From positions 1 through 33,550 of the forward strand of contig JAGXRQ010000038.1 of assembly GCA_018335675.1 (NCBI GenBank): DNA of 33,550 nucleotides. Reading direction: 5' to 3'. Shown here one piece after another: positions 5,418 to 31,210 of the stretch. Every line of letters starts with the position of its first letter. Position 1 is the first letter of the stretch. The position numbers and the translations under genes are program-made. Under the pieces are notes generated by a model, which saw nothing but the letters and a program-made list of their open reading frames with translations, made no database searches and was not told where the DNA came from. The stretch is from Bacteroidota bacterium. Lineage in GTDB: Bacteria; Bacteroidota; Bacteroidia; Bacteroidales; UBA7960.

Positions 5418-8387
5418 ATGACTGAAGGCCCTCAAGTATGGCGATTAAGCAAAGCTGCCAAGGAATTTAACATTGGCATTAATACTGTTGTTGATTTTTT
5501 ATCCAAAAAAGGATTTAAAATCGACAACAATCCCAATACAAAAATACCGGCAGAAGCATTTGATATGCTTGTGAAAGAATTTCAAGGTGAAAAGAAACTT
5601 AAAGAAGCTGTTTTAAAAACAGGATTGAACATTGCTAAAAGAGAAACTATTTCTTTGGAGGAAGAGAAAAAACAACTTACTGAAGAGTTGAAATCCAAGG
5701 AAACTACAGTAGCAAAAGAAGAGCCATTGGCTGATGAGAAAGACTTGTTCATTAAAGACAACAAATCTTCATTGGTAGAAACCACTCCTGAAATTGCGCC
5801 TATTCCAGAGAAAGAAAAAATTGCCGAGCCAAAAATTCTTGGGAAAATAGATTTGTCTAAAATTCAAAAAGACGATTCTAAAAAAGGCAAAGAAGCAAGA
5901 AAAGAAGAAGCTAAGAAGGAGAAAGAAGCAGCCGAAGCAAAAGCAAAAAAAGAGACGAAGGCAAAGGAACAGGAAGAGATAAAAGTTGAAACTGAACCTG
6001 AGGTAAAAACTGAGCTAAAAACAGAAGAAAAACCTGTAGAGAAAGTTGAAAAACAAACTGAGCAGGTTGAAAAAGTGGTTGAAGCAGCAAAACCTGAGGT
6101 AAAACCTGAAGAAAAAGAAGTTGCTCCGGAAATTGTGGAACCAGTTAAAGCAAAAGAACCGGAGACTAACATTCTTAAGGTCGAATTTAAAAAGCTAGAA
6201 GGTGTTACTATCTTAGGAAAAATTGATCTGCCTGTTGAAAAGGAATTTTCTAAAAAACCTGTAGCTTCATCATCAGACCCAAATAAATCCAAAAAACGCA
6301 AGCGTAAGCGTATTCGCAAGGAAAAAGGAGAAGAAAGCACAACCACCGCTGCAGCAAATACAAATGCGAATGCAACTGCTAATAAGGAATCTCAGCCAAA
6401 AACTGACAATCAGCAAGAACAAGCTGACAAACATAAAAAAGGCGGGAAAAAGGGTCATGTTAAAAAAGTATTTATAAAACCAGAAGTTTCTGAAGAAGAA
6501 ATTTCTCGTCAAATTAAAGAAACATTAGCCACTTTAAGTGGAACAGGTAAATCTAAAGCATCAAAATATCGTAGGCAAAAGAGAGATCACGTTCAGTTGC
6601 AAAGAGAAAAAGAATTCGAACAGTCAGAACTTGAAAAGAAAGTACTACAGGTTACAGAATTCATCCCCGCAAGTGAGCTTGCCAAGATGATGAATGTAAA
6701 CGTTAATGAAATTATTTCAACTTGCATGAGCATTGGTTTGTTCATTTCAATAAACCAAAGACTTGATGCGGAAACCATAAGCATTGTTGCAGAAGAATTC
6801 GGGTATGAAGTAAAATTTGTTAGCGTCGACGACCAAGAGTCAATCAAAGAAGAGAAAGATAAACCTGAAGATTTGCTTCCAAGAGCCCCGATTGTAACTG
6901 TAATGGGACACGTTGACCACGGCAAAACATCGCTTTTGGACCAAATTAGAAAATCAAATATTATAGCTGGAGAAGCCGGAGGGATTACCCAACATATTGG
7001 AGCTTATGTAGTTGAACTAGATGATCAAAGAAAAATTACATTCCTTGACACACCGGGTCACGAAGCATTTACTGCGATGAGGGCGCGCGGTGCCAGAGTA
7101 ACAGACGTTGCAATTATTGTTGTTGCAGCTGACGACAGTGTGATGCCTCAAACAATTGAAGCAATTAACCATGCTCAGGCTGCCAATGTTCCTATTGTTA
7201 TAGCTATCAATAAAATTGATAAGCCTGGAGCAAATGTTGAAAAAGTAAAAGAAGAATTAGCTAAAATCAATGTTCTTGTAGAAGATTGGGGTGGTAAATA
7301 CCAAAGCCAAGAAATCTCTGCAAAGAATGGAATAAACATAGATTTATTATTAGACAAAGTGCTTCTTGAAGCCGAGCTTCTTGATCTCAAAGCAAATCCT
7401 AACAAAAATGCAGTGGGTACTGTTATTGAAGCTTCTCTTGATAAGGGAAGAGGATATCTGGCCACTATTCTGGTTCAGGCCGGAACATTGAAACTTGGCG
7501 ATATTGTTGTTGCCGGCACAGCTCATGGCAAAATCAAAGCCATGTTCAATGAAAGAAATGTAAGAATCTCTACTGCTGGCCCTTCTACTCCTGCCGTATT
7601 ACTAGGATTAGACTGTGCTCCACAAGCAGGAGATACATTTAATGTTGTTGACGATGAGCATGAAGCAAGATCTTACACAACAAAAAGACAACAGATTATT
7701 CGTGAGCAAGGACTTAGAACTCACAAGCATATTACTCTTGACGAAATTGGACGAAGAATTGCCATTGGCGACTTTAAAGAACTTAACATTATTGTTAAAG
7801 GTGATGTTGATGGTTCAGTTGAAGCTCTTGGAGATGCATTATTAAAACTTTCTACAGAAGAAGTACAGGTAAACATTATCCATAAGGCTGTTGGACAAAT
7901 CACTGAGGGTGACGTTCTTTTGGCAACTGCATCTAATGCAATTATTGTCGGATTCCAAGTAAGGCCTTCGCTTGCTGCAAGAAAACTTGCTGAGCACGAA
8001 CAAATTGACATCAGATTATATTCTATCATTTACAATGCTATTAACGAGATTAAGTCGGCAATTGAAGGTATGCTTTCTCCAGATATTGAAGAGAAAATAA
8101 TTGCCAACATTGAAATACGCGAAACTTTTAAAATTACAAAAGTAGGTACAGTTGCAGGTTGCATGGTATTGGATGGAAAAATAAACAGAAACTCAACTAT
8201 CAGGGTTATTCGTGATGGCATTGTTACATATACCGGTCGTCTAGGGTCTCTTAAGAGATTTAAAGATGACGTAAAAGAGGTTTCGGTCGGTTACGAATGC
8301 GGATTGAATATTGACAGGTTTAATGATATTAAAGTTGGTGATATAATTGAAGCGTTTGAAACTATTGAGATTGCAAGAAAACTCTAA
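5418..8387 (+). CDS. infB: Translation initiation factor IF-2
   Basis: 989 residues. IF-2 is the GTPase that places initiator tRNA on the 30S subunit and promotes 70S joining. A winged-helix-like IF2_N region starts at residue 9 ([10 protein letters not shown]). A long Lys/Glu/Ala-rich linker follows (about 60-400), carrying the short motif ILGKIDL twice, at residues 140-146 and 265-271. A second IF2_N-like segment lies near 415-470. The G domain has GHVDHGKT at 497-504 (G1), DTPGH at 544-548 (G3) and NKID at 598-601 (G4). Domains II to IV complete the protein. No disruption is seen. The stop is six bases before pgi, which implies translational coupling. Two antisense reading frames over the linker are by-products of its biased composition. 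Confidence 0.97.
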
Positions 8388-8393
8388 TTCAAC

Positions 8394-9743
8394 ATGATAA
8401 ACTTAAGGCTCAATATTGACAAAACCTCAGGCTTTGTTTCTAAAGATGAGATAAAGCTTTTTAGAAGTGAAATTGAACTTCATTATCAAAACATCTATAA
8501 TAAAACAGGAAAAGGCAACGAATTTCTAGGGTGGGCAACACTGCCTGAAGAAATAAGCAGCTCAATAATTGACAATATTGAAAAAGACGCTGCTATACTT
8601 TCCAAAATCAGTGAGGTTGTTGTTGTAATAGGGATTGGCGGTTCGTATCTCGGATCAAAAGCCGTTATTGATGCACTTAGTAATAATTTCCCTCAACTTT
8701 CAAAAACTTCTGAAAGAATTAACCCTATAGTGCTTTTTGCCGGGCAAAACATTGACGAAGATTACATGCATGATCTTTTAAGTGTTCTCGACAAAAAAGA
8801 CTATTCAATCATAGTTATATCAAAATCAGGAACCACTACTGAACCTGCTATAGCTTTTAGAATACTTAAGAAGCATATTGAAAAAAAATACGGCAAATCC
8901 AATGCAAGAGAAAGAATTATTGCTGTAACAGATAAATCAAGAGGCGCTTTAAAAAAGCTTTCTGATGCTGAGGGATATACCACATATGTAATTCCGGATG
9001 ATGTTGGCGGAAGATATTCCGTATTAACTCCGGTTGGGTTATTGCCAATTGCAGTTGCAGGATTTGATATTCGCAAGCTTGTTGAAGGTGCAAAAAATAT
9101 GCAGCATTATTTAAGAGAAGAAAAAGACCTTGAAAAAAACCCTGCTGCACTATATGCCGTTGTAAGAAATATTTTATATCGCAAAGGCAAAACTATTGAA
9201 ATAATGGCAAATTTCACCCCTGTTATGGCTAACTTAACAGAATGGTGGAAGCAACTTTATGGAGAAAGTGAAGGAAAAGAGAATAAAGGTATTTTTCCTG
9301 CAGGAGTTAATTTCACTTGCGACCTTCATTCTATGGGGCAATATATTCAACAAGGATTACGCAACATTTTCGAGACTGTGATTTCAATTGAACAGCCTCG
9401 GTCTAAAATTGAAATTCCCAACGACCCTGAAAATATAGACGGACTAAACTTTTTGAGCGGAAAAAGGTACAGCTTTGTAAATAAAATGGCTGAACAAGGC
9501 ACTTTGCTGGCACATGTTGACGGAGGTGTTCCAAATATTTGCATCATTTTACCGCAAATAAATGAACAGAATTTAGGAGAGTTAATCTATTTCTTTGAAA
9601 TAGGATGTGCTCTGAGCGGGTACATTCTTGATGTTAATCCATTCGACCAACCCGGCGTTGAAGATTATAAGAAAAACATGTTCGCATTGCTCGGCAAACC
9701 CGGATATGAAGAGCTTGCCAGAGAGTTAAAGTCCAGACTTTAG
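8394..9743 (+). CDS. pgi: Glucose-6-phosphate isomerase
   Basis: 449 residues, the compact form found in Bacillus and Bacteroidota rather than the roughly 550-residue form of E. coli. It interconverts glucose 6-phosphate and fructose 6-phosphate in glycolysis and gluconeogenesis. Visible motifs are I-G-I-G-G-S-Y-L-G-S-K and S-K-S-G-T-T-T-E-P (phosphate site), D-D-V-G-G-R-Y-S (first family signature) and G-Y-I-L-D-V-N-P-F-D-Q-P-G-V-E near the C-terminus (second signature). It follows infB by six bases, so it is very likely the last gene of the rimP operon. It ends seven bases from the convergent repeat-protein gene, leaving no room for a separate terminator. Confidence 0.96.
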   Translation: MINLRLNIDKTSGFVSKDEIKLFRSEIELHYQNIYNKTGKGNEFLGWATLPEEISSSIIDNIEKDAAILSKISEVVVVIGIGGSYLGSKAVIDALSNNFPQLSKTSERINPIVLFAGQNIDEDYMHDLLSVLDKKDYSIIVISKSGTTTEPAIAFRILKKHIEKKYGKSNARERIIAVTDKSRGALKKLSDAEGYTTYVIPDDVGGRYSVLTPVGLLPIAVAGFDIRKLVEGAKNMQHYLREEKDLEKNPAALYAVVRNILYRKGKTIEIMANFTPVMANLTEWWKQLYGESEGKENKGIFPAGVNFTCDLHSMGQYIQQGLRNIFETVISIEQPRSKIEIPNDPENIDGLNFLSGKRYSFVNKMAEQGTLLAHVDGGVPNICIILPQINEQNLGELIYFFEIGCALSGYILDVNPFDQPGVEDYKKNMFALLGKPGYEELARELKSRL

Positions 9744-14130: not shown

Positions 14131-17100
14131 ATGCAAAATTGCAAATTCACTGTTATAAAATATTTCGTTCTGATAATTTTATCAGTGGTTTGTATTTTTA
14201 AAGCCTCCTTCTCACAAAACTATATATTCCAAGTTTACAACCAAGACAATGGATTGCCTCAGGTTCAAGTAATTGATTTATTGATAGACAGCAGAGGATA
14301 TTTATGGACAACAACAAGTGGTGGCGGCATTGGTAGATTTGACGGCATAACATTTACAACATATTCTACAGAACATGGACTGGGAAGCAGCAATGTATTG
14401 TGCGCTTTCGAAGACAGTAAAGGAAATATTTGGGCAGGGACATATGAAGGAGGATTAAATCTATACAATGGCAAGGGGTTTACAAACTTTAGGCATGAGA
14501 ATTATATAAACACTATTAATTCAATATGCGAAGACAAGGATGGGAAACTGTTATTAGGAACACAAAACAATGGTGTATTTACTTTTGATGGTGAAACTTT
14601 CGAGCAATTTGAAATTCCGGAGAGTTTCAAAAACTCAACCATCAACAGGCTGATTTTATATAAAAATGAATATTGGCTAGCTGTAGAGCACTTTGGATTA
14701 ATGAGAATAAAGGAAAATGAAATTATTCTTTACACTCAAAAAAATAATTTTCCGGGCAAAACCCCAAGATCATTTTTCACTGATTCTCAAAATACTTTAT
14801 GGATAGGCTCTGACGCAGGCCTTACGAAATTTGAGAACGACAGCTTCATTCATTTTGGCAGACAGCACGGACTAATAGCCACACCTATATTGGATATCGT
14901 AGAAGATAGTGAAGGAAATTTGTGGGTTGCAACATTTGGAGAAGGAGTTGCTATTTTCGACGGAACTACTTTCAGGCATATTACCAACAAGCAAGGATTA
15001 ACAAATAACTTCATAAGATCTCTTGAAGTTGACCCTTCCGGAGGAATCTGGATCGGAACAAACGGAGGTGGCCTGTGTAGATTTGGCGGAAAGCTCTTTA
15101 CAGTGTTAGATGCCTCTTCAGGACTGAAAAATAACTTAGCTATAAATATTCTTGAAGACAAAAATGGAAATGTATGGTTCTCAAATATTGGAGCTGGCAT
15201 AACAAAGTGGGATGGCAAAAACTTCAAGTACTATTCTAAAGATAATGGCCTTGCAGATAATTTAATTTATGGACTATTTGAAGATAGTAAAGGGAACATA
15301 TGGTTTGCACATCAAACTGCCGGTGTTACAGCTTTTGATGGAAAATCATTCAAAATATATAATGAAAAAAATGGCCTTGTCAACAATTTTGCAACCGTTG
15401 TTAGGGAAGACTCCAAAGGAAACATATGGATATCAACACGACAAGGGATAAGCATGTTTAATGGCAAATCATTCAAAAACTTGACTATCAATGACGGACT
15501 AAAAAGAGATAAAACCTACCACATGGCAATTGACAAACATGATAATGTTTGGACTGCTTGTGAATCGGGAGTCTTAAATGTAATATTCCCCATATATGAT
15601 GAAAAATCAGATAATACAAGATTTGAAATAAAGAGTTTCACACCAGCTACCCCATATATTAATACATTTTCTACAATTGCAATTACGGATAACGGAAGTG
15701 TTTGGATTGGATCTTTTGGAAATGGTTTATTTCATTTTGATGGGGAAAATTTCAAAAACTTCACTGTAGAAAATGGCTTAAGCTCAAACCACATTTATTC
15801 TTTATTGGCTGATGGGGAAAATACTATTTGGATGGGCCACTTGAAAGGCCTTGACAAAATTCAATATCAAAATGATTCTATTATAAATGTTTCATCATTC
15901 TCAAAAGAACAAGGGTTTATTGGAATAGAAACCGCATTAAATTCAATTATAAAAAGATCCAACGGACAAGTAATGGTTGGGACAGCAAAAGGTGTTATGA
16001 TTTACAATCCTGAATATGACATCGACATCTCGTGCGAGCCTATTACACATATTAAAAGCATACAAGTTTTTTTCCAGGACTTTGATTTTTCTGAATATGC
16101 CGACGAAATAGACAATAGAACATTTCTACCAAAAAATCTTGTACTTAATCACAAGCTCAATCATCTAACGTTTGACTTTATAGGCATCAAATACTCATCA
16201 CCGGAAAAAGTAAAGTACTCATGGATACTTGAAGGTTTCGACAAAAAATGGTCGCCTCCCACAAAAAACACTTCGGTGACATATACAAATCTTCAGCCTG
16301 GCAAGTATACTTTTAAAGTCATAGCTTATAATCCGTTTACAAATCTGGCTTCTGCACCGGCTGTTTATAGCTTTGCAATTAAACCACCTTTTTACAAAAC
16401 TATTACATTCTATATTTTAGCAGGATTGTCAACATTTATCATAATATTTCTTTCTATATATTACAGATTCTATTCCTTGAAAAAAATGAATCTCCGCTTG
16501 GAAGATCTTATTGACATTAGAACAAAAGAACTTCAGGAAGAAAAAGGGAATGTTGAAGCACAGAGAAATAAGATTTTGGCTCAAAACATAGAAATATCAA
16601 GGAAAACTGTAGATCTGGAAGAAAGCAATGAAGAGCTTAGAATAAAAACCGAAGATCTTGAGTCGCAGAGAGCTGCAGCAGAAATGGCCAATATTCAATT
16701 AGTTAAAGAGAAGAGAAAGTCGGACGATTTATTGCTAAACATTTTGCCACTTGAAATCGCAAACGAATTAAAATCAAACGGCAAAGCATCAGTTAAGCAA
16801 TTCAGTAGAGTTACGGTAATGTTTACCGACTTCTCTGATTTTACAAACATATCAAAATCTCTTTCTCCAATAGAATTGATAAACAGACTTGATGATAATT
16901 TCTCTGCATTTGATTCTGCTATAGAACAATACAGGATTGAAAAAATAAAAACCATTGGCGACGCATACATGTGCGCGGGCGGACTACCTGTTCCTAATTT
17001 AGCAAACCCCATAGAAGTTGTACTTGCAGCATTAGACATTCAACACTATCTTAGTGAACAAGCTGAAATATCAAAGCTTATAGGAGAAAAACCATTTATG

Positions 17101-17436
17101 GCTAGAATAGGCATTCATACAGGTAAAATTATTTCAGGAATTATTGGAAAGAAAAAAATTGCTTATGACATATGGGGTGAAACTGTTAACCTTGCAAGCA
17201 GGATGGAGTCAGCCGGAGAAATTGGAAAAATAAATATTTCAGGTATTACATACGAATTCATAAACCCATATTTCGAAACTTTCCATAGAGGAAAAATAAG
17301 CCTTAAAAACTCTCCTTCGCTTGATATGTACTATGTTACAAGAATAAAACCTGAATATTCAGAAGATGAAAATGGCATTTTCCCAAACAACAAATTATAC
17401 ACTGCAATTGGTGAAATAGACGCGCAATTATTATAA
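14131..17436 (+). CDS. Propeller/Y_Y_Y sensor fused to class III adenylate cyclase
   Basis: 1101 residues. A signal peptide (about 1-29) leads into some fourteen Reg_prop blades (G-N-I-W-x-G-T-x-x-G-G-L-x-x-F-D-G type), enough for two seven-blade propellers. A Y_Y_Y immunoglobulin-like domain follows (about 680-750, W-I-L-E-G-F-D-K-K-W). One TM helix (about 758-780), a coiled coil (about 785-870) and the catalytic domain complete it. Metal aspartates are D900 (M-F-T-D-F) and D944 (I-G-D-A-Y). K940 and D1013 are the adenine-specifying pair, and N1020 and R1024 the transition-state pair, so cAMP is the predicted product. The outer part equals that of Bacteroides hybrid two-component sensors, which usually bind glycans, but no kinase or receiver domain is present. 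A paralogous cyclase follows 124 bases downstream. Confidence 0.88.
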   Translation: MQNCKFTVIKYFVLIILSVVCIFKASFSQNYIFQVYNQDNGLPQVQVIDLLIDSRGYLWTTTSGGGIGRFDGITFTTYSTEHGLGSSNVLCAFEDSKGNIWAGTYEGGLNLYNGKGFTNFRHENYINTINSICEDKDGKLLLGTQNNGVFTFDGETFEQFEIPESFKNSTINRLILYKNEYWLAVEHFGLMRIKENEIILYTQKNNFPGKTPRSFFTDSQNTLWIGSDAGLTKFENDSFIHFGRQHGLIATPILDIVEDSEGNLWVATFGEGVAIFDGTTFRHITNKQGLTNNFIRSLEVDPSGGIWIGTNGGGLCRFGGKLFTVLDASSGLKNNLAINILEDKNGNVWFSNIGAGITKWDGKNFKYYSKDNGLADNLIYGLFEDSKGNIWFAHQTAGVTAFDGKSFKIYNEKNGLVNNFATVVREDSKGNIWISTRQGISMFNGKSFKNLTINDGLKRDKTYHMAIDKHDNVWTACESGVLNVIFPIYDEKSDNTRFEIKSFTPATPYINTFSTIAITDNGSVWIGSFGNGLFHFDGENFKNFTVENGLSSNHIYSLLADGENTIWMGHLKGLDKIQYQNDSIINVSSFSKEQGFIGIETALNSIIKRSNGQVMVGTAKGVMIYNPEYDIDISCEPITHIKSIQVFFQDFDFSEYADEIDNRTFLPKNLVLNHKLNHLTFDFIGIKYSSPEKVKYSWILEGFDKKWSPPTKNTSVTYTNLQPGKYTFKVIAYNPFTNLASAPAVYSFAIKPPFYKTITFYILAGLSTFIIIFLSIYYRFYSLKKMNLRLEDLIDIRTKELQEEKGNVEAQRNKILAQNIEISRKTVDLEESNEELRIKTEDLESQRAAAEMANIQLVKEKRKSDDLLLNILPLEIANELKSNGKASVKQFSRVTVMFTDFSDFTNISKSLSPIELINRLDDNFSAFDSAIEQYRIEKIKTIGDAYMCAGGLPVPNLANPIEVVLAALDIQHYLSEQAEISKLIGEKPFMARIGIHTGKIISGIIGKKKIAYDIWGETVNLASRMESAGEIGKINISGITYEFINPYFETFHRGKISLKNSPSLDMYYVTRIKPEYSEDENGIFPNNKLYTAIGEIDAQLL

Positions 17437-17560: not shown

Positions 17561-19117
17561 ATGTTAAGCACTTTTGTTGACATATCTGTTTTTGGGGCAC
17601 TTATTATGGCAGGGCTATATTTTATAGCTTTTTATGCTGTAAGAAGAGGAAAACCTAGTCCTTTATATTTTGGGATTTTTATTTTATTTAACAGCTTTTT
17701 CATACTACTAAAAACCACCGCCTTATCATATTATTTGGTGAAGGGCTTATCAATAGAATTAATTTCCGACATCAATTATTTCACTTTTTGCATCGCAATT
17801 GTATTTCTAGGCTTATATTTTAAAAGAATATACGGCAAATTTATCCCGAGAATTCTTATAAATTTTCTAATTATTTATTTTGCTTTACTTTCTATAATCC
17901 CATTTACGATAAAACACGAATTTCAAAGATTACTTGAAAACACAATTCATTTATCGTTGATTATATTGCTGATTATTCTGATTTTTTACATTTTCCAGGC
18001 AATAAAAGCAAAAAAGAAAGGAAGCTTATTGTTTTTAATTGCAACCTTCATTTTGCTAGCTGCTCTTGTAAATGATTATTTATTTATAAATGGATTATTA
18101 AAAACAACAGAATTGTATTCATTAGCTGTTTTTATTTTTATACTGTTTCAGGCTTTATATATCTCGCTCAAAAACAGTGTTATAACATCTGAGAATAAAA
18201 TAATGGCCAGCGAACTTGATTATCATAATAAAAATCTGGAGCAGATTATTGAAGATAAAACCCGAGATATTGAAATAATGAAGGGTGAAATGATTGAACA
18301 GCAGGAGTTTTTGCAAGACCTCAAATATCAGCTCGATGAAAGAAAGGAGGATCTTCAGGCTCAAAGTGAAATGCTGGATGTGGTTAATAAAGCTCTTGAT
18401 ATTGAGAAAAAAAAGTCGGATACATTATTGTTGAATATTCTTCCCGAAAAGATTGCTGAAGAGTTGAAAAGTACAGGCGAAGCAAAACCTATGCTATTCC
18501 CGGAAGCCTCAGTGCTGTTTACTGATTTTGTTTCTTTCAGTAAAATTGCAGCCAATATGACTCCTGAGGAATTGATTAAAGAATTGCATTTTTATTTTGT
18601 TCATTTTGATGAGATTATTGAAAAATATAAAATCGATAAAATCAAAACCATAGGCGACGCATATTTATGTGCTTCGGGCATTATGAACGAGCCCGGAAAC
18701 AGAGTTGCAGCGTGTGTTATGACAGGCTTGGAGATATGCAGATTTATGAATGAAATATTGGAGAAAAGAAAATGTACAGAGCAATACTGCTTTGAAATTA
18801 GAATAGGTATTCATACAGGACCTGTAGTATCAGGCATTGTGGGCAAAACAAAATTCGCTTTTGATATTTGGGGAGACACTGTTAATACAGCCAAAAGAAT
18901 TGAATCAGCTTGCAACCCTGGCGAACTGAATATTTCAGACTCTACATATCAAAAAGTTAAAGATTACTTCATATGCACCAGCAGAGGTGATATAAAAGTG
19001 AAACACAAAGGAAACATTGAAATGTTTTTTGTAAACAGACTTCGTCCGGAATATTGCACTGATAGCGAAGGCTTTATTCCGAACGAAGAATTTCACAAAA
19101 TTATTGGATTAAAATAA
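17561..19117 (+). CDS. Seven-TM anchored class III adenylate cyclase
   Basis: 518 residues. Seven hydrophobic helices fall near 8-27, 35-57, 71-89, 95-115, 129-149, 154-177 and 184-205. This resembles the 7TMR-DISM membrane unit but lacks its usual outer DISMED2 domain. A coiled coil (about 210-285) leads to the linker K-K-S-D-T-L-L-L-N-I-L-P and the cyclase domain. Metal aspartates are D322 and D366, the adenine-specifying pair K362 and D435, and the transition-state residues N442 and R446, so it should make cAMP and looks active. From the linker to the C-terminal tail (R-L-R-P-E-Y) it resembles the upstream cyclase, which suggests duplication of the output module. Its stop is four bases from that of the convergent tryptophanase gene. 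Confidence 0.87.
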   Translation: MLSTFVDISVFGALIMAGLYFIAFYAVRRGKPSPLYFGIFILFNSFFILLKTTALSYYLVKGLSIELISDINYFTFCIAIVFLGLYFKRIYGKFIPRILINFLIIYFALLSIIPFTIKHEFQRLLENTIHLSLIILLIILIFYIFQAIKAKKKGSLLFLIATFILLAALVNDYLFINGLLKTTELYSLAVFIFILFQALYISLKNSVITSENKIMASELDYHNKNLEQIIEDKTRDIEIMKGEMIEQQEFLQDLKYQLDERKEDLQAQSEMLDVVNKALDIEKKKSDTLLLNILPEKIAEELKSTGEAKPMLFPEASVLFTDFVSFSKIAANMTPEELIKELHFYFVHFDEIIEKYKIDKIKTIGDAYLCASGIMNEPGNRVAACVMTGLEICRFMNEILEKRKCTEQYCFEIRIGIHTGPVVSGIVGKTKFAFDIWGDTVNTAKRIESACNPGELNISDSTYQKVKDYFICTSRGDIKVKHKGNIEMFFVNRLRPEYCTDSEGFIPNEEFHKIIGLK

Positions 19118-20960: not shown

Positions 20961-23468
20961 ATGAGATTCCTCCGACTCTTATTCATTTTTTCGGCATTAG
21001 TTTCTTCTTCATCTTTTATTTATTCTCAAAACACAAAAATTGATTCACTCAAAAATGAACTAAAAAAGCCATTACACGATACAACAAGTACCGGGATATA
21101 TGTAAAAATTGCAAATTATATGTCAGACCTGGGAATTGAGTCTGATTCTGTTTTTTCATATGCTGACAAAATAATTGCACTGGCAGATAAAAACCTACCA
21201 CAAGAAGTCATCCCACCAATAAAAGACTCTATCTCAATAACTTTTATCAAACATAAAGCAAAAGCCCACTATATAAAAGGTTATAATTATTTAAACATTG
21301 GAGAATTTAATGAGGCTATTCCCCTTTTGGAGAAATCAATTGAAATTCACACACTAATAAAAAACTACAGTGATATAGGGTCTTGTTATACCCCACTTGG
21401 AATTATACAATACGCATTGGGAAATTATGAAGGTGCCATTGAGTATTTCACAAAGGGACTGGATATTTTTATTGAGCTTGACGATCAAACAAGAATTGCA
21501 ACATCAAACAACAATATAGGAATAATATATCGACATCAGGGATTATATGATAAAGCTGTTGAGCACTATATGAAAAGCTTAAAGGTATATGAAGAAGTTG
21601 GACATAAAGAAGGCGAGGGTAAATCGCACAACAATATAGCAATCATTTATAATTACCAAAAAAACTACAATCTAGCCATTGAGCATTATAGCAAGGCATT
21701 AAAAATATTTGAGTCGATTAATGACAAAAGAGAAATTAACAGAATCAACAATAATTTGGGCATTGTTTACAGTAATATGGCAGAAGATGAAAAGGAAGAT
21801 GAACAAAAGAAAAAGCAATATTACGACAAGGCACTCAACTACTATGAAGAATCTTTAAAAAACGCAAAAGAGCTTAATGACAAAGTTGCAGTATCGGCAT
21901 GCCTTAGTAATATGGGAAGCATTTACAAAGAATTGGGCTTATTTTCAAAAGCATTGCAATACCTTTCTGAATCACTAAAAATTGACAAGGAAATGGGAGA
22001 TGTTGCAGGCATGGCAACAGTACATGTTAGACTTGCAGAGGTTTATAATGCAATGGCTAAACAGATAATTAATAGTGAAGATGACAGTACTCGCCAGCTT
22101 TTTTATACCTATGTTGATAAGGCAATAGATTTCTCGGAACTCAGTTATAAAACGTCCTTAGAAATAGGTTCTTATCCGATTCAACGTTCTGCTTTGCTTC
22201 AACTTATGACAGCCTGGAAATATAAAGGCGATAATTCTAAAGCTTTATTATACTCTGAAAAATATATTGAAGTAAATGAATTTATTTATAATGATGAAAG
22301 ATCAAAGGCTCTTGCAGAAATGCAATCAAAGTATGAGGCTGAAAAAAAAGCATTGGAAATAGAGAACCTTAATAAGGAAAACTCATTAAGAATAATAGAA
22401 CTAGCCCATAGTGAGGAGCAAAGAAAAAAGCAAATTACAATCATTTATTCTTTCATAATTGTTTTTACAATAATTATTTTGTTCTCTATCATAATCACAA
22501 GGCTTTTTCTTCAGAAGAAAAAAGCAAATATTGTTTTAGCAGAGCAAAGAGATCATATACAGGAACAAAACATTATGCTTCAGGAGGCAATGGAAGAAAT
22601 CAGAGCTCAGAAAGAAGAAATTGAAAGTCAGCACGAAACAGTTGTTAAGCAGAAAATCTATATCGAAGAACAAAAATACAGAATTGATGACTCAATAAGA
22701 TATGCTCAAAGAATACAAAGCGCGGTTTTACCTACAGACAGCATTGTATCTAAATTGTTTGATGAATATTTCATTTTATATCTGCCAAAAGATGTTGTTT
22801 CGGGCGACTTTTACTGGGCTTCTGAGTCGGGTGAATGGATTATTCTAGCCGCTGCAGATTGCACAGGACATGGCGTACCCGGGGCTTTCATGTCGATGCT
22901 TGGCATGAGCTTCTTAAATCAGATAACTGCAACAAAAAAGTTTACAAATGCTTCGGATACTCTTTTCGACCTCAGAAAAGAAATAATAAAAGCACTTCGT
23001 CAGTCAGAAGATGATGATGATTCTCAGCTGGATGGAATGGATATAAGTCTGGCCGCTATAAATAAAAACACATTAAAATGCCATTGGGCAGGAGCAAACA
23101 GCCCAATTTGGATAATAAAGAATAGCTACGATGATGATTCTGATGAAATTATTGAAGAGATAAAAGGAGACAAAATGCCTGTTGGCATTTACATTAAAAT
23201 GGATAAATTCACCAACCACGAGATTCAATTAAAAAAGGGTGATAAACTATATTTGTTTAGTGATGGATATGCTGATCAATTTGGTGGCAGGGAAAAGAAA
23301 AAATTCAATAAAAAAGCATTAAAAAGTTTACTATCAGAATCTGCTTCATTACCTATGTCGAAGCAAAAAGAAATATTAGAAGCCAAGCTTTATGAATGGA
23401 AAAATCCTGAGCAAGGAATTCAATACGACCAAATAGATGATATTGTGTTTATGGGAATAAAAATATGA
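20961..23468 (+). CDS. TPR / TM / SpoIIE-type PP2C phosphatase
   Basis: 835 residues. A signal peptide (to about residue 22) is followed by six or seven TPRs (about 95-400, with motifs such as N-N-I-G-I-I-Y and N-Y-x-x-A-I-E-H-Y). One TM helix lies at about 493-517 and a coiled coil at about 520-590. The C-terminal SpoIIE/PP2C domain has S-G-D-F-Y-W with D616, A-A-D-C-T-G-H-G with D633, P-G-A-F-M-S and a late S-D-G-Y-A-D. These aspartates are the usual metal ligands, so the phosphatase looks active. The family dephosphorylates serine or threonine, often on anti-sigma-factor antagonists; this architecture is frequent in Bacteroidota and its substrates are mostly unknown. The TPR part should be periplasmic and the phosphatase cytoplasmic. 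No STAS or anti-sigma gene is adjacent. Confidence 0.88.
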   Translation: MRFLRLLFIFSALVSSSSFIYSQNTKIDSLKNELKKPLHDTTSTGIYVKIANYMSDLGIESDSVFSYADKIIALADKNLPQEVIPPIKDSISITFIKHKAKAHYIKGYNYLNIGEFNEAIPLLEKSIEIHTLIKNYSDIGSCYTPLGIIQYALGNYEGAIEYFTKGLDIFIELDDQTRIATSNNNIGIIYRHQGLYDKAVEHYMKSLKVYEEVGHKEGEGKSHNNIAIIYNYQKNYNLAIEHYSKALKIFESINDKREINRINNNLGIVYSNMAEDEKEDEQKKKQYYDKALNYYEESLKNAKELNDKVAVSACLSNMGSIYKELGLFSKALQYLSESLKIDKEMGDVAGMATVHVRLAEVYNAMAKQIINSEDDSTRQLFYTYVDKAIDFSELSYKTSLEIGSYPIQRSALLQLMTAWKYKGDNSKALLYSEKYIEVNEFIYNDERSKALAEMQSKYEAEKKALEIENLNKENSLRIIELAHSEEQRKKQITIIYSFIIVFTIIILFSIIITRLFLQKKKANIVLAEQRDHIQEQNIMLQEAMEEIRAQKEEIESQHETVVKQKIYIEEQKYRIDDSIRYAQRIQSAVLPTDSIVSKLFDEYFILYLPKDVVSGDFYWASESGEWIILAAADCTGHGVPGAFMSMLGMSFLNQITATKKFTNASDTLFDLRKEIIKALRQSEDDDDSQLDGMDISLAAINKNTLKCHWAGANSPIWIIKNSYDDDSDEIIEEIKGDKMPVGIYIKMDKFTNHEIQLKKGDKLYLFSDGYADQFGGREKKKFNKKALKSLLSESASLPMSKQKEILEAKLYEWKNPEQGIQYDQIDDIVFMGIKI

Positions 23469-29419: not shown

Positions 29420-31210
29420 ATGAAAATAAATCATATCGGCATTCTCTTTCTTACAATTGCAATCTGCATTTCCAACTTATCATTTGCAGCAAATAGCAAA
29501 GGACCTGTAATAGTTGTTTCACCTGAAAACATTAATATTGAGGTAAAGCAAGGATTTACAAATGCAGCAATTATTAGCATTTACAATCCCGGAGATGAAG
29601 ATTTAAGCATATTTATAACTGCAGAGTACGATAGTAAAAGCAAATCGGGAGGTTGGATAAGTTTTAACATTACTGATGAAATCGTAAAACCAGGTGATAC
29701 AAAAGATATTGAGGTTACCTTTAGTGCTTCAAATCTTGAACTTGGGGATTTCATTGCAAATATTATTATCGAAAATAATGCAGAAGAAGATGTATTTATT
29801 GAAACAATAATGTCGGTAGTATTTCCGGCTTTTAATTTAACTTTTATAATTAAAGATACAGACGAATTTACGATTGATGATGCTGTAATTTCAGTTGAAG
29901 ATATTGTCAATGATGCTGGCAACTATGTATTTGAAGCTTTAGTGCCGGGTTCATACGAATATCTGATAGAAAAAGAAAATCACTTTTCAGCATCTGGAAC
30001 TGTAATTATTTCTGACGATGACAAAGTATTGGAGATTACTCTTATTTCTGAAATTACAGAAGTTTTTAATATTACTTTCTTTATTGAAGATGAGTTTGAA
30101 AATCCAATTGAGAATGCCTATCTGGAAATTGAGAAATTAGGAAGTTTCTTAAGCAACGAAAACGGAGAAATATCGATTATTGCCTTCGAATATAATTATC
30201 AGTATAGTGTTAGCAAAACAGGTTTTTATAGTTTTTCCAATGAAATATTTATTGACGAAGATCTATTGATTCCTGTTACTATGACTTATCTGAAATTCAA
30301 TATTGACTTAACTGCAGACCCTTTAAATGGAGGACTTGTACTAGGCGGAAGAGAATATTATTATGGTGAATCCGCAACAATTATTGCAGAGCCCGGAGAG
30401 TTTTTCAATTTTCTTTTTTGGACTATAAATGATGCCTTTTTATCAGACGAAGAAGAATTCACCTTTCAGGTTTTTGAAGATTTAGACATTACAGGCCACT
30501 TTGAATTATTCAGATATAATATATCAGCTATTGCCAATCCCGAAGCCGGAGGAGAGGTTTCAGGCAGCGGAGAGTATTTTCATGGGCAACCCGTTACATT
30601 AATTGCCATCCCATCAAATGGCTACAGTTTTATAAAATGGACAGAAAATGATTATGACATTTTAGGCGCTGAAGCAGAATATACATTCAATGCTTATGAA
30701 GACAGAACTTTAGAAGCTCATTTTAGTCTTATCTCATATACTTTAAAATTCTCTGTTGAAGATCAGGACGAAGTGAAAATACCTGATGCAATAATAACCT
30801 TAAACAGTGTTAACTATGAGCCTGGCTTTTATGTTTTTGAAGATTTAGTGCCGGATACATATACATACTCAGTGTCTAAAGATGGTTATTTTACTGTTAA
30901 TGGGAGTGTTACAATTACTGATTCTGACATTATTATTCCAATCGTGATTATAAAAGATAACACAGGACTTGCAGAATTTAATTATGATATATCGGTTTAT
31001 CCAAACCCAGCAAAAGACTATTTCACTGTTAGTTGCGGTGAGATTATTTCTGAAATTAGACTGTATAACGCATCAGGAACAGAAATGCAAAGGACTTTCC
31101 CCAAAAGCAATATGACAATAATTAATATTTCAGAATTTAGCAGTGGCCTTTACTTTGCAAAAGTATTTTTAGGCAATAACCCTATTATCATAAAAATCTA
31201 CAAACCCTGA
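29420..31210 (+). CDS. T9SS-exported protein with PEGA-like and InlB-B-like repeats
   Basis: 596 residues. A signal peptide (to about residue 23) is followed by an Ig-like domain (about 30-135). Three PEGA-like beta repeats begin F-N-L-T-F-I-I, F-N-I-T-F-F-I and Y-T-L-K-F-S-V, each with a V-P-x-x-Y-x-Y or similar core. Two divergent InlB B-type repeats lie between the second and third (about 290-440; G-G-x-V-x-G-x-x-x-Y-x-x-G and F-x-x-W-T-x-N). The last about 75 residues are a T9SS sorting domain: V-Y-P-N-P-A-K-D-Y-F near residue 526, G-L-Y-F-A-K-V-F, and K-I-Y-K-P at the end. It should be exported through the outer membrane and fixed to the surface or released. No enzymatic motif is seen, so adhesion or a structural role is a guess. 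Confidence 0.85.
   Translation: MKINHIGILFLTIAICISNLSFAANSKGPVIVVSPENINIEVKQGFTNAAIISIYNPGDEDLSIFITAEYDSKSKSGGWISFNITDEIVKPGDTKDIEVTFSASNLELGDFIANIIIENNAEEDVFIETIMSVVFPAFNLTFIIKDTDEFTIDDAVISVEDIVNDAGNYVFEALVPGSYEYLIEKENHFSASGTVIISDDDKVLEITLISEITEVFNITFFIEDEFENPIENAYLEIEKLGSFLSNENGEISIIAFEYNYQYSVSKTGFYSFSNEIFIDEDLLIPVTMTYLKFNIDLTADPLNGGLVLGGREYYYGESATIIAEPGEFFNFLFWTINDAFLSDEEEFTFQVFEDLDITGHFELFRYNISAIANPEAGGEVSGSGEYFHGQPVTLIAIPSNGYSFIKWTENDYDILGAEAEYTFNAYEDRTLEAHFSLISYTLKFSVEDQDEVKIPDAIITLNSVNYEPGFYVFEDLVPDTYTYSVSKDGYFTVNGSVTITDSDIIIPIVIIKDNTGLAEFNYDISVYPNPAKDYFTVSCGEIISEIRLYNASGTEMQRTFPKSNMTIINISEFSSGLYFAKVFLGNNPIIIKIYKP

Follow-up and report, generated by a model that had tools for sequence, protein, structure and literature searches.

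What does a periplasmic sensor of the type found in Bacteroides polysaccharide regulators do when a nucleotide cyclase sits on its cytoplasmic side? The question is posed by P0001, a gene on the forward strand of contig JAGXRQ010000038.1 of a Bacteroidota bacterium (Bacteroidales, UBA7960; assembly GCA_018335675.1), and was addressed in the window formed by positions 1 to 33,550 of that contig. The gene joins two β-propellers, a Y_Y_Y domain, a transmembrane (TM) helix and a helical linker to a class III cyclase catalytic domain (Table 1). On the sequence and a structural model, P0001 is very probably a single-pass receptor adenylyl cyclase, and the recurrence of the same domain combination in many species counts in favour of this reading.

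The predicted protein matched the Pfam families Reg_prop (1.6e-49, with three stretches passing singly), Y_Y_Y (5.5e-15, residues 688-749) and Guanylate_cyc (2.2e-49, residues 888-1069). Its hydropathy profile holds two hydrophobic segments, residues 3-30 and 754-780, which are a signal sequence and a single TM helix. In an AlphaFold2 model built from a 34-sequence alignment (mean predicted local distance difference test score, pLDDT, 86.9; predicted template modelling score, pTM, 0.63), the strands between residues 46 and 625 read as fourteen consecutive four-stranded blades with the Y_Y_Y domain after them. This agrees with the first-pass annotation, made from the letters alone, which had counted fourteen blades; the Y_Y_Y domain, single TM helix and cyclase that it had named were likewise found by Pfam, hydropathy and the model. 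C-terminal of the Y_Y_Y domain the model continues with a long helix spanning residues 758-814, then leads through a stretch of low confidence (805-835) and a further helix (840-871) to the cyclase. The coiled coil proposed for this region thus stands in part: a helical linker is modelled, but only partly with confidence, as the block pLDDT is about 40-65 across residues 790-860. Gln29 directly follows the predicted signal peptide, whose cleavage site was read by eye, and Ser28-Gln29 fits the Q-rule for Bacteroidetes signal peptides. A chance or pseudogene origin of P0001 was rejected on its single open frame and complete active site, and chance is not a plausible source of its domain layout. 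The first frame of the reverse complement of 14131-17436 has stops throughout.

Among solved structures, those closest by sequence to the sensor are the periplasmic parts of BT4663 (4a2l, 5.8e-51) and BT3049 (3v9f, 3.4e-49), and both matches span nearly all of the periplasmic part of P0001. The fold gives the same answer, with 4a2l superposing at a Z-score of 41.2 (700 residues aligned, root-mean-square deviation 4.1, 23% identity) and 3v9f at 35.4, so that assignment of the sensor half to the hybrid two-component system (HTCS) type is upheld by sequence and fold alike. Like P0001, these Bacteroides HTCS proteins carry two seven-bladed propellers, a Y_Y_Y domain and one TM helix; unlike them, P0001 has no Pfam match to a histidine kinase, receiver or AraC helix-turn-helix (HTH) domain after that helix, and ends in a cyclase instead. 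The fold alone would not name the ligand, because the next matches, single-propeller proteins at 8-15% identity, also reach Z-scores of about 28-30. Since propellers fill the list of these fold matches, that list says little on the other parts of P0001. A tblastn search of phage records with P0001 gave 11 records, none covering 80% of the query, and the five shown align to the sensor part at 20-25% identity.

The claim that the cyclase has every catalytic and adenine-selecting residue was confirmed by alignment. Following the class III literature, we take Asp900 and Asp944 to bind metal, Lys940 and Asp1013 (the K/D pair) to select adenine, and Asn1020 and Arg1024 to act on the transition state. 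All six are also present in the cyclase encoded next door and in a second Y_Y_Y cyclase of the same genome, on contig C73; in the genome's remaining cyclase, the fourth, on contig C40, Thr takes the place of the Asp. The same residues occur in 40/40 of the same-order relatives described below, with the Arg position unreadable in one of them. Among 53 open reading frames (ORFs) from the best 80 matches in a collection of named genomes, 49 have all six and 53 the K/D pair, counts that are partly built in because the scan patterns, [IL]EKIKTIG and YDIWG[DE]TV, contain K or D. In a fold search the domain aligned with bacterial adenylyl cyclases (5o5l, Rv1625c) and with class III guanylyl cyclases. 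It is therefore a well-supported prediction from these residues that P0001 makes cyclic AMP (cAMP).

Class III adenylyl cyclases of the Rv1625c/Cya type have the same catalytic domain as P0001, with each of the six key residues; the anchor of Rv1625c is made of six TM segments (eLife e13098, extract), against one TM helix and a propeller sensor in P0001. The atrial natriuretic peptide receptor GC-A, a single-pass receptor guanylyl cyclase, is like P0001 in that an outside sensor is connected by one TM helix and a helical linker to a class III cyclase, and the catalytic domains match at 9e-34. GC-A makes cyclic GMP (cGMP) and carries a kinase-homology domain, whereas P0001 has the K/D pair for adenine selection and no kinase-homology domain in Pfam.

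The genome holds four class III cyclases and nine Y_Y_Y matches, the latter ending in four PP2C/SpoIIE phosphatases, two cyclases (P0001 and the C73 protein), two histidine kinases, one with a receiver, and one LuxR-type HTH, a fragment at a contig end (L024 170-943, contig C104). The four phosphatases thus have the propeller-Y_Y_Y sensor module of P0001 with a different output. In the C73 protein (L015 4783-8115) the Y_Y_Y and cyclase matches are above cut-offs and the Reg_prop match is not (0.001), so its propeller is presumed. The sensor of P0001 is 31% identical over 771 positions to that of a histidine kinase and 32% over 820 to that of a PP2C phosphatase, against 23% over 357 plus 47% over 74 for the C73 sensor. 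Its cyclase domain, by comparison, is 51% identical to that of C73 and 47% to that of the neighbour, the C40 cyclase lying outside this comparison. Because the sensor is nearer to kinase and phosphatase sensors and the cyclase nearer to that of C73, sensors and outputs seem to have been exchanged, and we take the pattern as a sign of this. Output swapping is known biology and each part of P0001 is of a known family; histidine kinases, cyclases, PP2C phosphatases and others sit behind a common signalling-helix linker (PMC1592074, extract).

How far the combination extends was surveyed in 295 genomes of the same order, using a profile for the Y_Y_Y-to-cyclase part that was built from two sequences. 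The profile matched in 255/295, many to one part only, and Guanylate_cyc in 176/295; the three other sampled members of the window's own family had no Guanylate_cyc match. From the 43 listed matches outside the genome itself with an open frame over 1000 amino acids we took 40 (loci L056-L095, 36 genomes). All 40 joined a cyclase to a Y_Y_Y domain at E below 0.01, judged with a profile made from the genome's own Y_Y_Y domains, and 39 did so at 0.001, one being weak; as these ORFs were chosen for length, the counts are no measure of prevalence. Pfam, run on 12 of them, found the cyclase in all and both Y_Y_Y and Reg_prop above cut-offs in 11, the exception (L070) having a weak Y_Y_Y and no Reg_prop. 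The Y_Y_Y profile is not indiscriminate, since of 21 shorter cyclase ORFs that this search also gave, 20 lacked the domain. A Y_Y_Y-joined cyclase is thus present in at least 37 same-order genomes (the 36 examined and that of P0001), and the claim that a cyclase replaces the kinase behind this sensor, true of P0001, describes nothing exceptional in the order.

The combination also reaches beyond the order. In the collection of named genomes, 52 of the 80 loci that matched P0001 best have both domains, under labels that include Flavobacteriales, Bacteroidales, Saprospiraceae, Melioribacteraceae, Kapaibacterium and Treponema, with some Spirochaetes; Pfam confirmed Reg_prop, Y_Y_Y and cyclase in 4/4 named loci checked, including the T. 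bryantii NK4A124 protein. Most of the named matches belong to Bacteroidota, and together with the SusD homologues and a type IX secretion tail they point to that phylum for the genome of P0001. Among the matches listed, the nearest full-length relatives of P0001 are 32-37% identical and there is no close orthologue. One locus (L149 1850-5515) encodes a propeller-Y_Y_Y cyclase with a C-terminal response-regulator receiver, in which D and A stand where the transition-state Asn and Arg are expected.

Many of these relatives have a second catalytic partner. An HD domain directly follows the cyclase in 26 of the 40 large same-order ORFs, an HD gene lies immediately downstream of four more (L056, L057, L063, L068), and the remaining 10 have no HD, one of them ending at a contig end. 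Fusion of cyclase and HD was likewise seen in 16/53 of the named ORFs. The C73 cyclase is followed after 94 bases by an HD gene (8210-8821), and beyond it, by eye, a UspA-like gene. P0001 itself has no HD domain, nor is there an HD gene in the window. The HD residue pair is retained in 15 of 16 aligned copies, and in its consensus, YHN..H, the family is similar to class I cyclic nucleotide phosphodiesterases. Against solved structures the HD profile matched best an uncharacterised HD hydrolase (2pq7, 6e-9), then YedJ (0.00025) and, weakly, class I phosphodiesterases (from 0.026); the fused domain of L070 has a weak, sub-cut-off match to PDEase_I (0.0088). The simplest reading is that HD-bearing cyclases would make and break the cyclic nucleotide in one protein, and a cyclase/phosphodiesterase pairing in these relatives is plausible. 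Fusions of cyclase and HD were also observed without a detected Y_Y_Y domain (L167, L173, L178, L181, L192 and one ORF each in L169 and L171), which suggests that cyclase and HD together form an independent module.

As a receptor adenylyl cyclase, P0001 would dimerise, and an outside ligand or a state of the envelope would move its paired Y_Y_Y stalks. This movement may be passed through the TM helices and the linker to alter the geometry of the cyclase homodimer, which would convert ATP to cAMP. Several findings weigh against this reading. The linker, on which such transmission would depend, is modelled poorly near residues 805-835, and the pTM of the model does not fix the placement of sensor relative to cyclase. 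The K/D pair is a good but imperfect predictor of ATP over GTP. The search of the genome for a Crp-like receptor, proposed with the first-pass annotation, was negative: the Crp HTH model PF00325 had no match, HTH_Crp_2 had one below cut-off in a 150-residue frame, and the only cyclic nucleotide monophosphate (cNMP)-binding domain is fused to aspartate ammonia-lyase (L016 6922-8781, contig C50). Nor was a class II phosphodiesterase, the one type searched for in the genome, found there, with a model that matched in only 2/14 control genomes and in none of them above cut-off. These absences are soft, because a gene could have been missed in what is a draft of 150 contigs, 98% complete.

With no Crp found, cAMP would probably act through another protein. 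A match spanning both parts of the cNMP-aspartase fusion is present in 59/295 same-order genomes, with one partial match in addition (G256). In the HMMER alignment the fusion has His at the position of a protein kinase G Arg that we take to be the phosphate-binding one, and 20 of 21 aligned fusions have His there, the other having Tyr. From these residues the fusion is a candidate receptor with an altered, non-canonical pocket, and it is doubtful that its domain serves as a normal cAMP receptor. A cyclase match occurred in 53/60 fusion genomes, the partial match G256 included and 7/60 having none, and in 123/235 of the others (Fisher 1.2e-7); the sets were read by hand from tables and the test is uncorrected for kinship and genome size, and we do not lean on this association.

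If P0001 is a receptor adenylyl cyclase, what does it sense and with what does it pair? A narrower form of the same explanation, not exclusive of it, would have P0001 regulate polysaccharide utilisation, its propeller binding a glycan oligosaccharide and cAMP replacing the phosphorelay to switch on a polysaccharide locus. The sensor has the fold of BT4663, a sensor of heparin/heparan sulphate (4a2l), and HTCS sensors of this build that are linked to polysaccharide-utilisation loci bind oligosaccharides (PMC3243724, extract). The surroundings speak against such a role, which we consider improbable. The 33.5-kb contig has no SusD homologue, against five elsewhere in the genome, and the 18 window proteins scanned include no susC/susD neighbour and no Pfam match to a polysaccharide-degrading enzyme. 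The only Y_Y_Y sensor to have a SusD homologue on its contig (C104, which also carries a TonB barrel) is the one that ends in a LuxR-type HTH; four sensors of this module drive PP2C phosphatases, and no Crp was found to carry cAMP to promoters. The glycan ligand entertained in the first-pass annotation is therefore not supported, with non-glycan neighbours and a sensor module that serves varied outputs, although this is an absence of support and not a disproof.

The gene 124 bases downstream of P0001 invites another arrangement, in which the two cyclases form a heterodimer whose active site takes input from both sensors. Dimerisation is general among class III cyclases, the two genes adjoin on one strand and both active sites are complete; two or more cyclase genes were also seen in the fetched stretches of L149, L168, L186, L188 and L189. 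Yet each of the two proteins has every residue needed for a homodimer, their domains are only 47% identical, and no relative of the gene pair was found for comparison, which leaves the heterodimer quite improbable. It is very improbable that P0001 makes cGMP or another cyclic nucleotide in place of cAMP: some class III enzymes do depart from the residue rule, and a genome in which no Crp was found would suit a different product, but Lys940 and Asp1013 are ATP-type residues and the pair is kept in 40/40 relatives examined. On this evidence a receptor adenylyl cyclase that would act as a homodimer remains the best explanation of P0001.

The immediate neighbours of P0001 are a gene for a nitroreductase-family protein upstream and, downstream, the genes for the 7TMR-DISM cyclase, a tryptophanase and a TPR protein with a SpoIIE phosphatase domain, which lies near both cyclases (20961-23468, + strand). 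Receptors of the 7TMR-DISM type with a cyclase output, exemplified by this neighbour, resemble P0001 in coupling a membrane sensor to a cyclase and differ in having a multi-TM membrane domain and no propeller. A recent duplication of one cyclase from the other was rejected, given 47% identity of the catalytic domains. Further along the window (29420-31210, + strand) is a Flg_new_2 repeat protein with a type IX secretion sorting tail. A Bacteroides-type promoter pattern matched three times in the window against 2.25 expected, never near 14131, and sigma-70-type and terminator-like sites occurred there about as often as chance predicts. Elsewhere in the genome, the TonB-barrel loci on C62 (47004-48162) and C89 (2539-3697) have identical scores and the same split frames, which suggests a duplicated contig stretch.

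Table 1. Positions of P0001, its parts and the adjoining cyclase gene in the window
Feature	Position	Strand	Remarks
P0001, whole gene (propeller-Y_Y_Y-TM-linker-class III cyclase)	14131..17436	+	1101 residues, ATG start
Predicted signal peptide, residues 1-28	14131..14214	+	Hydropathy; cleavage site read by eye
First seven-bladed propeller, about residues 29-318	14215..15084	+	AlphaFold strands; superposition on 4a2l, residues 28-784
Second seven-bladed propeller, about residues 319-634	15085..16032	+	AlphaFold strands; single seven-bladed propellers superpose on about 319-634
Y_Y_Y domain region, residues 638-750 (Pfam core 688-749)	16042..16380	+	Pfam, AlphaFold2 model
Transmembrane helix, residues 754-780	16390..16470	+	Hydropathy, AlphaFold2 model
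Cytoplasmic helical linker, residues 781-871, low confidence at 805-835	16471..16743	+	AlphaFold2 model
Class III cyclase catalytic domain, residues 888-1069	16792..17337	+	Pfam, fold match
Asp900, presumed metal-binding	16828..16830	+	Alignment
Lys940, presumed adenine-selecting	16948..16950	+	Alignment
Asp944, presumed metal-binding	16960..16962	+	Alignment
Asp1013, presumed adenine-selecting	17167..17169	+	Alignment
Asn1020 (first codon) and Arg1024 (last codon), presumed transition-state residues	17188..17202	+	Alignment
Second class III cyclase with 7TMR-DISM membrane domain, 518 residues, complete active site	17561..19117	+	124 bases downstream; possible partner

A literature search, whose coverage left out most subscription journals and which is no proof of absence, returned no description of a propeller-Y_Y_Y cyclase that we recognised. 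As far as that search goes, what seems new is that this combination of sensor and cyclase is common and that many of its members have an HD hydrolase. A 2005 census of the four Bacteroidetes genomes then sequenced reported that adenylate cyclases were absent and Ser/Thr/Tyr kinases few or absent (PMC1183210, extract). It is a speculative and, in our judgement, unlikely extension of these results that the receptor adenylyl cyclases of Bacteroidota and Spirochaetes include a large class, so far undescribed, made up of propeller-Y_Y_Y cyclases. On this view many of them would have an HD phosphodiesterase fused or adjacent, so that a single polypeptide would both produce and degrade the signal, and their cAMP would work free of Crp and might have the conserved cNMP-aspartase fusion, with His for Arg, as one candidate target.

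Signalling by cAMP is little described in Bacteroidota, and the Y_Y_Y module is known from glycan regulators. If P0001 is indeed a receptor adenylyl cyclase, the role of cAMP in a bacterium where no Crp is found would become testable, and one kind of outside sensor would, within a single genome, feed into a phosphorelay, a phosphatase, direct DNA binding or a second messenger.

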